From: Pseudomonadales bacterium
GTDB taxonomy: Bacteria; Pseudomonadota; Gammaproteobacteria; Pseudomonadales; Azotimanducaceae
Direction: 5' to 3'
DNA length: 64,000 bases
NCBI GenBank assembly: GCA_007131295.1
Contig: SLQW01000009.1
Coordinates: 1-64,000, forward strand
Below the pieces are notes generated by a model. That model was not told the origin of the DNA. It made no database searches and worked only from the letters and a program-made list of their open reading frames with translations. Made by a program: the position numbers and the translations under genes. Below are positions 7,103 through 24,849 of the stretch, piece after piece; position 1 is the first letter of the stretch, and every line of letters begins with the position of its first letter.

Positions 7103-8203
7103 ATGCTGTTGCGATCCCTGCAGATATCGAAATCAGAGTTCGAAGCGGGTACCGGCTGGCAGTTGAAGCCGGAGGGCGCCTGCAAGGGCGACGTGTGTAT
7201 TCCGCTGCCGGAGTTACCTGGCGATACCTTGGACGTCGCGGCTGTGGCCGAGACCATGGGACTGCCGCTCGCGTCCGCGCCGGAGCACGGACTCTGGGCT
7301 CTCGGGCCGGAGGCGATCGGCGGCCGCGCGCTGACCACCGCCGAGGCTCCCGACTTGCGTCTCCCCGACCTCGACGGTAACGACTTCGCGCTGTCGAGCC
7401 TGCGCGGCAAGAAGGTCCTGCTCTACGCCTGGGCCCCCTACTGAGGCTGTTCCGGCGACCTGTCCGTGTGGCAGGCACTGAGGAACGAACTCGCGCCCAA
7501 GGGCTTCGAACTCGTCACGGTGGGCCTCGATACGCTCGGCGCCGAAGGCTGCCGGCCGTACATCGAGGCAGCGCAACCCGAACATCCGGCGTTGATCGAT
7601 CAGTACCACAAGCTCGCCGATGCCTTCGGGTTCATCAACATTCCGAGCAGCGTCTGGATCGACGAAGACGGCATCATCGTTCGTCCCGCCGAAGTGGCGC
7701 CGGCACCGCCGGGCGCCCGCTCTGGACCGCCGCCGGAGCTGCCGCCGGAAACGCCGGAACGCCTGCGCTCGATGATGCAGGAAGCGGTGAAGATTCCGGA
7801 CGACTCGAAGGCCTACCACGAGGCGCTGAAGGATTGGGTAGAGCGGGGTCACGACAGCCCCTATGCATTGGCTTCAGAGGAAGTGATCGCTCGCTCTCGT
7901 CCGCGGGACACGGACCGCTCTCTCGGCCACGCCCACTTCGAGCTGGCCAGCGCCTTGGAGCTGGCAGGGCATCACGACGCCGCCATCGAGCACTTCAGAG
8001 AGGCGCACCGCCTGGTACCTGAGAGCTGGACTTTCCGGCGTCAGGCCTGGTCTCTGGAACCTGTGGAGGCGGCCGGGCCGTTCGCTCGCTTCTGGCAGGG
8101 GCCGCGCCCGGACGATCCTGAGTCCTGGCCCTACGATGGCGGTTGGCTGGAAGACGTGAAGCGGGTCGGCGCTGAGAACTACAACGAGCGCTGGAAGCCC
8201 TGA
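7103..8203 (+). CDS. candidate selenoprotein: thioredoxin/AhpC-TSA-fold protein with in-frame UGA (Sec114) and C-terminal TPR-like segment
   Basis: The frame is open from ATG 7103 (preceded by CTGGAG) to the stop at 8201-8203, except for one TGA at 7442-7444. Read as selenocysteine, it gives a 366-residue protein with Sec at 114 in the context AWAPY-U-GCSGDL, where thioredoxin-fold relatives carry the reactive Cys of a WxxWC-type motif. A resolving Cys116 follows. Residues 1-75 form an N-terminal module with a GACKGDVC motif; about 85-235 resemble a TlpA/AhpC redoxin domain (LPDLDGNDFALSSLRGKKVLLYAW before the TGA, WQALRNELAPKGFELVTVGL after it); about 270-310 resemble a TPR unit. No frameshift or other lesion is visible and codon usage matches on both sides. 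A SECIS-like hairpin follows the TGA. The alternative is a point-nonsense pseudogene or two separate ORFs. Confidence 0.78.
7445..7486 (+). promoter_or_regulatory. bacterial SECIS-like hairpin directly 3' of the in-frame UGA
   Basis: Two nested stems can be drawn by eye: a lower stem GUUCC (7449-7453) with GGAAC (7482-7486) and an upper stem CCUGUC (7459-7464) with GGCAGG (7470-7475, one G-U pair), closing a 5-nt apical loop CGUGU at 7465-7469. The loop starts 20 nt after the UGA and has G as its second base followed by U. This fits the known bacterial SECIS pattern: a hairpin immediately downstream, the loop roughly 16-37 nt from the UGA, and a G among the first loop bases. Not computed with folding software. 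Confidence 0.65.
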
Positions 8204-13469: not shown

Positions 13470-14924
13470 ATGGCCCTCCCGCGTCCCCTGCTGCTTAACG
13501 TCATGACTTCGAGTTCCGCTCCTGTCCCTTACCCGACCCTGGCTGCGCCCGCCCATTCAGCGCTCGAGGCCCTGTTCGGCGAGCGCCTGCGCACCGATAC
13601 CGATACCCTCGGGAGCTGGGGACGGGACTGGACCCGCAGTTTCACGGTGGCGCCCTCTGCGGTGGTTTTTCCTGAGTCCACCGAGGAAGTGGTGGAGCTG
13701 GTTCAGACGGCCCGGACGCATCGCTTCGCGCTGGTCCCTTCGGGCGGTCGAACGGGTCTGTCCGGTGGCGCCGTCGCGCCGGCGGGAGAGGTGGTGGTCT
13801 CCTTCGACCGGATGCACCGTATCCTCGACCTCGATGTGCCCGGTCAGCTGATGCGCTGCGAGGCGGGTGTGATCACCCAGACGATTCAGGAACATGCCTC
13901 CGAGCACGGGCTTTACTATCCGGTGGACTTCGCTTCCGCCGGTTCCTCGCAGATCGGCGGTAACGTCGCCACCAATGCCGGCGGCATCAAGGTGATCCGT
14001 TACGGCATGACGCGCGACTGGGTCGCGGGTTTGCAGGTGGTCACCGGGCGGGGCGAAGTGCTCGACCTCGGTCGCGGCCTGGTCAAGGACAACACGGGCT
14101 ATGACCTGCGCCAGCTCTTCATCGGCTCCGAAGGCACTCTCGGCCTCATAACGGAAGTGACGCTGCGCCTCACCCGTGCGCCCGCCGCCCAGCAGGTGCT
14201 CGTACTCGGGCTGCCTGCGTTCCCGGTGGTGATGGAAGTGCTCAATGCCTTTCGCAGCCGGCTCGAGGTGTCAGCGTTCGAGTTTTTCGACCACAAGGCC
14301 TTGGCGAAGGTGCTCAGCCGCACGGGACTCCCACGGCCTTTTGAGGCCAACCCCGAGAGCGTTCCGTTCTACGCTCTGGTGGAGGTTGAAACCGCAGTTG
14401 ATGCAGATGCGCCCCTGGGCGTATTCGAACATTGCGTCGAGCAGGGCTGGGTCGTGGACGGCGTGCTCAGCCAGTCGGAGGAGCAGGCGCGCAAGCTCTG
14501 GCGTCTGCGCGAGGACATCTCGGAGACCATCAGTCACTGGACGCCCTACAAGAACGACCTCGCCGTGCGCGTCGCCGACGTTCCAGCATTTCTCGCAGAG
14601 GTCGATGCCTTCGCTGCGCAGCGCTATCCGGACCTGGAGGTCGTGTGGTTCGGCCACATCGGTGACGGCAACCTGCACCTGAACATTCTGAAGCCGGAAG
14701 CCATGCCCCAGCATGAGTTCTATGATCGCTGCCACGCCGCTTCGAAGGCGATCTTCGAAACGGTGCGACGCTATGGCGGCAGCGTGTCGGCAGAACACGG
14801 CGTGGGCCTGCTGAAGAAGGACTATCTCGGCTACTCCCGCAGCGACCCGGAAATCGCGTATCTGCGCGCGATCCGCTCGACCTTCGATCCGGACGGCATC
14901 CTCAATCCTGGCAAGCTGGTCTGA
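13470..14924 (+). CDS. FAD-binding D-2-hydroxyglutarate dehydrogenase / GlcD-type oxidoreductase
   Basis: A 484-residue flavoprotein of the VAO/GlcD family. The PCMH-type FAD domain spans roughly residues 60-240 (LVPSGGRTGLSGGAV, GGNVATNAGGIKVIRYG, GSEGTLGLIT). The C-terminal domain carries WFGHIGDGNLHLN and SAEHGVGLLK, which hold the metal/substrate-binding His and Glu residues of D-2-hydroxy acid dehydrogenases. Divergence from serA across about 40-75 bases fits the described SerA/D2HGDH coupling in Pseudomonas. Start is uncertain: ATG 13470 gives 484 residues; ATG 13503 would leave more room for a divergent promoter. Neither has a clear Shine-Dalgarno. D-lactate or glycolate remain alternative substrates. 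Confidence 0.87.
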   Translation: MALPRPLLLNVMTSSSAPVPYPTLAAPAHSALEALFGERLRTDTDTLGSWGRDWTRSFTVAPSAVVFPESTEEVVELVQTARTHRFALVPSGGRTGLSGGAVAPAGEVVVSFDRMHRILDLDVPGQLMRCEAGVITQTIQEHASEHGLYYPVDFASAGSSQIGGNVATNAGGIKVIRYGMTRDWVAGLQVVTGRGEVLDLGRGLVKDNTGYDLRQLFIGSEGTLGLITEVTLRLTRAPAAQQVLVLGLPAFPVVMEVLNAFRSRLEVSAFEFFDHKALAKVLSRTGLPRPFEANPESVPFYALVEVETAVDADAPLGVFEHCVEQGWVVDGVLSQSEEQARKLWRLREDISETISHWTPYKNDLAVRVADVPAFLAEVDAFAAQRYPDLEVVWFGHIGDGNLHLNILKPEAMPQHEFYDRCHAASKAIFETVRRYGGSVSAEHGVGLLKKDYLGYSRSDPEIAYLRAIRSTFDPDGILNPGKLV

Positions 14925-21038: not shown

Positions 21039-21719
21039 TCAACTGCGATTCCTGAGCCGACGCTCGACGCCGGCCGCGCCTGCGATCAGCAGCACGTCTG
21101 CCGGCCGCAACGCGAACAGACCGTTGCAGACCACCCCGACGAGGTCGTTCAGGCGGCGTTCGCAGGCGGGTGGGTCTCGCAGGTCCAGACCTTTCGTATC
21201 GACGATGAGGTTGCCGTTGTCAGTCACGAAACCGGCCCGCACCTGCGGCTGGCCGCCGAAATCGCGCAGACCACTCATCACCAGCTCCCTTGCCATGGGA
21301 ATGACTTCGAGCGGAAGCGGGAAGGCGCCCAGCACGTCGACGCACTTGCTGTCGTCGACGATGCAGACGAAGTTTTCTGATGCGGCTGCGACGATCTTCT
21401 CCCGGGTCAGCGCGCCGCCACCGCCCTTGATCAAGTTGAGCCCGACGTCGACTTCGTCGGCGCCATCCACGTAGACCGCCAATGAGCCTGCTTCGTTGAG
21501 GTCGAGGACGCGGATGCCGTGGCCCTCGAGGCGAGCTGCGGTGGCGTTCGAGCTGGCGACGGCCGCGTCGAAGCGTCCCTTGTGGTCGGCAAGCAGGTCG
21601 ATGAAACAGTTGGCGGTGGATCCCGTGCCGACGCCGATCACCGCACCGCGGACGAGCTGCTCGCGAATCTGCTCGACGGCTGCGGCGGCCACCGCCTGTT
21701 TTTTCGATGCCTGGTCCAT
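21039..21719 (-). CDS. rpiA: ribose-5-phosphate isomerase A
   Basis: A 226-residue enzyme interconverting ribose 5-phosphate and ribulose 5-phosphate in the pentose phosphate pathway. Family signatures are visible: [14 protein letters not shown] (phosphate loop), [17 protein letters not shown] with the catalytic Asp, and [15 protein letters not shown] with the catalytic Glu and Lys. Length matches E. coli RpiA (219). ATG 21719 starts the conserved N-terminus; the longer open frame to 21863 is rejected because it would overlap the divergent ilvA start. The two genes diverge over 142 bases, the arrangement also seen for rpiA/ilvA in Pseudomonas. Confidence 0.96.
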
Positions 21720-24667: not shown

Positions 24668-24849
24668 CTCGCTCCCCGGGAGTGCCGCTGTCGATATGGT
24701 CCTTGAACCCGAAAGTCCAAGGTGGGAGTTCAGGCGACCCCTCAGGCTTTCCGACGCGCGGACATGCACACCGGGGTCTGCACTTCACTCCCTGGTACAA
24801 CATAAGGCTCGAGGACGTGCACCGACTGGCGAACATCCCAGGGAACGAG
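24668..24849 (-). ncRNA. ssrS: 6S RNA
   Basis: The minus strand between zapA and 5-FCL reads as a 182-nt 6S RNA. The ends form a 14-bp terminal stem (24849-24836 with 24668-24681, two G-U pairs). The conserved 5' block CTGGGATGTTCGCCAG, close to the E. coli CTGAGATGTTCGCAAG, is present, followed by a CCTCGAGCC segment like the E. coli CCCTGAGCC. The 3' half has CTTGGACTTTCGGGTTCAAGG, matching the CTTGAACCAAGGGTTCAAGG closing arm, and a GCGGCACTCCCGGGG end. Length and synteny match E. coli (about 184 nt). 6S RNA mimics an open promoter and sequesters sigma-70 RNA polymerase in stationary phase. Confidence 0.93.

Follow-up and report, generated by a model that had tools for sequence, protein, structure and literature searches.

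Selenoproteins of the UGC-motif type have been catalogued before. The GOS survey of 2008 lists a group named "Prx-like (UGC-containing)" (PMC2398784), and a 2026 table (PMC13188914, Table 1) includes a TlpA disulfide reductase family that contains UGC. NCBIfam holds a corresponding model, NF041054, named "ResA-like WAxxUGC motif-containing protein" (WAxxUGC_long). The minimal SelB-binding SECIS of E. coli is reported to be a 17-nt upper stem-loop (PMC11431864). We took the rules for bacterial SECIS elements (bSECIS) from the legend of Fig. 2A of PMC13188914, which give an apical loop of 3 to 9 nt on an upper stem of 4 to 16 bp, a G within the first two loop positions, 16 to 37 nt between the UGA and the loop, and a minimum free energy (MFE) of -7.5 kcal/mol or lower.

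We compared these systems with a gene interrupted by an in-frame UGA in a 64,000-nt stretch of DNA (the window), whose features are collected in Table 1. With the UGA, codon 114 of the frame, read as Sec, the product matched NF041054 at 489.8 bits, above the curated cut-off of 300, and the match spanned residues 1 to 365 across the UGA, with U in the motif WAPYUGC. The protein has an AhpC/TSA-ResA-like domain (Pfam PF00578, AhpC-TSA/Redoxin) followed by a TPR-like C terminus, and its redox role is a prediction. The UGC motif and the AhpC-TSA/TlpA-type domain are common to this protein, the GOS Prx-like family (PMC2398784), the UGC-containing TlpA family (PMC13188914), and NF041054, and we found no feature that distinguishes it from them; that the GOS family is the same as NF041054 is a judgement from motif and domain. 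The motif string WAxxUGC occurred in none of the papers listed in a literature search. At strict E-value limits, the family is sparse in the wider sample, where a single genome among 369 from the class and two among 398 from the phylum contain it, but it occurs in 87 of 206 genomes of the source organism's own family.

Table 1. Positions in the window of the predicted selenoprotein gene and of the elements in and around its UGA codon.
Feature	Position	Strand	Basis
Predicted selenoprotein gene, 366 codons plus stop (ATG start at 7103, stop at 8201-8203)	7103..8203	+	NF041054 score, Pfam PF00578, TPR matches
In-frame UGA, predicted Sec codon	7442..7444	+	UGA aligned in 148 distinct homologues
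Conserved hairpin core, predicted SECIS, 17 nt (6-bp upper stem CCUGUC/GGCAGG, 7459-7464 with 7470-7475; apical loop CGUGU, 7465-7469)	7459..7475	+	Homologue comparison, RNAalifold, covariance model
Lower stem of the initial annotation, GUUCC/GGAAC, 5 bp	7449-7453 with 7482-7486	+	Folds here, not conserved
Loop bases N1 (C7465) and N4 (G7468), flanking the G-U tip	7465..7468	+	Covary as C:G or A:U in homologues

The genome (98.17% complete, 222 contigs) contains everything expected of a host of bacterial SECIS elements, namely, SelA, SelB, SelD, and tRNA-Sec. The genes selA (547.4 bits), selB (427.4 bits), and selC adjoin each other on a single contig, C138, with selD (225.3 bits) nearby. The tRNA-Sec matched at 62.5 bits and was called by ARAGORN as tRNA-Sec with the anticodon TCA (UCA). 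The selD match (L192, G000:C138:16410-17348) lies within a 778-codon open frame, so that a fusion of SelD with a further domain is probable.

The initial annotation had described a SECIS-like hairpin directly after the UGA, and the position of the UGA, the spacing, the 6-bp upper stem, the CGUGU loop, and the 5-bp lower stem were all present as described. The distance from the UGA to the apical loop is 20 nt (7445-7464), and the MFE is -7.9 kcal/mol for the 21-nt core and -14.2 kcal/mol for 42 nt. In common with the bSECIS consensus (PMC13188914), the hairpin has a 5-nt loop, a 6-bp upper stem, a G at the second loop position followed by U or G, a 20-nt spacing, and an MFE at or below -7.5 kcal/mol. 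It also resembles the minimal E. coli element (PMC11431864) in being a 17-nt upper stem-loop within coding sequence, a likeness of size and not of sequence; the E. coli element was proven by experiment, whereas the present one is known from sequence comparison. Rfam scans gave no match to a SECIS family. Compared with dinucleotide shuffles, the folding energy had z scores of -0.41 and -0.60, and 59 and 48 of 200 shuffles were at least as stable. The stability of the single sequence is not above chance and proves nothing by itself; it is the comparative evidence, not the folding energy, that sets this hairpin apart.

For this comparison we collected homologues by whole-genome searches and from GTDB contigs, giving 148 distinct UGA-bearing sequences, with full-length homology on both sides of the UGA, and 4 distinct Cys sequences. 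Pairs are numbered with index 0 as the U of the UGA. Orthologues that lacked the hairpin, or that kept the UGA with broken stems, would speak against a SECIS by the initial annotation's own criterion, and we looked for them; instead, the upper stem persisted in every UGA homologue, and its inner pairs 22:28, 21:29, 20:30, and 19:31 were standard in 148 of 148. The two outer pairs change in a compensatory way, from C-G to U-A. Within the Leu type (97 sequences), pair 18:32 occurs as CG in 82, UA in 12, and UG in 3, and pair 17:33 as CG in 75, UA in 11, UG in 9, and CU in 2. The 51 Val-type paralogues have a bulge at index 32, beyond which the register is shifted and the pairing becomes 18:33 (51 of 51) and 17:34 (41 of 51).

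In 32 divergent sequences, about 99.5 to 99.6% of cells in the upper stem were paired, compared with at most 68% in slid controls, double-change cells numbered 15 against 3.0 when shuffled, and the covariation score reached 0.335, where the slid controls gave no more than 0.110. The RNAalifold consensus had the 6-bp upper stem as its sole element. The homologues are not independent of one another, and we also counted independent contrasts on a protein tree from which the hairpin codons had been left out. For the Leu-type sequences, N1:N4, 18:32, and 17:33 gave about 2, 3.5, and 5 concordant changes, respectively, and no discordant ones, a total of about 10 in which each pair alone has too few for firm significance; the outer pair of the Val type was uninformative.

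The loop varies within narrow bounds. Its forms are CGUGU, AGGUU, CGGGU, and AGUUU, with G second in 148 of 148, as the loop-G rule invoked in the initial annotation would have it, and bases 23 and 26 are C:G in 119 and A:U in 29 of all 148. Position 5, a U, is the first base of an invariant Trp codon. We tentatively propose, as a possibility on the weaker side of even, that in this family loop positions 1 and 4 form a covarying pair (C:G or A:U) that closes the SECIS tip, so that just two bases, G-U or G-G, make up the tip and the U at position 5 stays unpaired, and that the Val-Pro-Val-Trp paralogues are a sub-type with one additional base bulged out of the 3' strand. Such a pair would differ from the inner N1-N2 pair of the bSECIS model in leaving two bases between the partners, where the model leaves at least three.

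A hairpin within coding sequence could lack any function as RNA and be a by-product of GC-rich codon usage and the conserved residues L-P-V-W-Q, and the folding energy, no lower than that of shuffles, agrees with such an origin. We weigh it by synonymous recoding, which swapped codons while preserving every protein sequence together with its codon usage. Recoding left all four inner pairs intact in about 42% of sequences (62.5 expected, against 148 of 148 observed), and the conserved LPVWQ residues do account for part of the pairing. However, all pairs including N1:N4, a pair defined after the data were seen, were kept in 146 of 148 sequences against 21.2 expected, placing the upper stem and loop far beyond chance and bearing out the view that a SECIS lies inside the coding sequence. 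Codon choice is restricted accordingly: Leu is solely CUG or UUG, the third base of Pro/Ser is solely C or A, and Leu position 1 and Gln position 3 change together. The stem was broken in all of the Cys homologues, of which the set has only four distinct ones; one of them (L091) retains LPVWQ, yet its stem has an A-C mismatch. The synonymous-codon test largely refutes a by-product origin, which we consider very improbable. A genome of the same order (G089) has two full-length Cys forms (WASWCGC; L018 and L103/L201) without the hairpin, and these outscore the Sec forms against NF041054.

The UGA is in frame and is followed by an open reading frame with a GTG start, and it could mark a genuine stop, an assembly error, or a pseudogene, in which case re-initiation at GTG 7466 would yield a separate 245-aa product. 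The position of the UGA is shared by 148 distinct homologues, the homology runs full-length to either side of it, and the genome has the complete Sec machinery, all of which makes this reading scarcely credible. How far the functional element extends is a separate matter. The initial annotation proposed a two-part hairpin, and the MFE structure of the local sequence does hold both stems, as it would if the whole 38 nt (7449..7486) were the SECIS. Across the 32 divergent homologues only 46.9% of lower-stem cells were paired, and RNAalifold predicted no lower stem. The upper half of the proposal thus stood and the 5-bp lower stem did not: the latter is a feature of the present sequence or genus, or chance, and a 38-nt element is unlikely. 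Because the lower stem fails across homologues, the conserved element is the 17-nt upper hairpin.

From these comparisons, the hairpin at 7459-7475 is almost certainly the bacterial SECIS of a UGC-motif ResA/TlpA/Prx-like selenoprotein gene. SelB with Sec-tRNA-Sec and GTP would bind the 17-nt stem-loop as the ribosome reaches the UGA and would deliver Sec at codon 114, and translation would run on to 8203.

A covariance model built from a 42-sequence alignment matched the present locus, a training member, at 53.3 bits. One other strong match was found in the genome (C12:29623-29667, 50.3 bits), and it is the predicted SECIS of a shorter Val-type paralogue at C12:29098-30006, so that the genome has at least two genes of this kind. 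This paralogue (L076/L114, G000:C12:29098-30006, minus strand) contains a UGA, has a shorter NF041054 match of 228 bits, below the cut-off, and carries the bulged base in the 3' strand of its hairpin. Weak matches within the window, at 14883-14904 (minus) and 21206-21230 (plus), were both short and local; we rejected the former as a chance match, since the hairpin core is missing from it and an intact open reading frame of 484 codons runs antisense to it. Relatives were not found in the viral contigs searched, and a plasmid search gave solely distant, partial matches. The window also encodes a 6S (SsrS) RNA at 24669-24847 on the minus strand (Rfam RF00013, 102.2 bits).

This locus is a well-supported but ordinary example, in which both the recoding mechanism and the selenoprotein family were known beforehand. 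If the UGA were not read as Sec, annotation would wrongly split the gene in two. The hairpin is a clear instance of the same bases being constrained both as codons and as RNA structure, and its approximately 150 natural variants could calibrate SECIS prediction. The 1:4 tip pair, if true, would sharpen the general model of the bacterial loop that SelB recognises.
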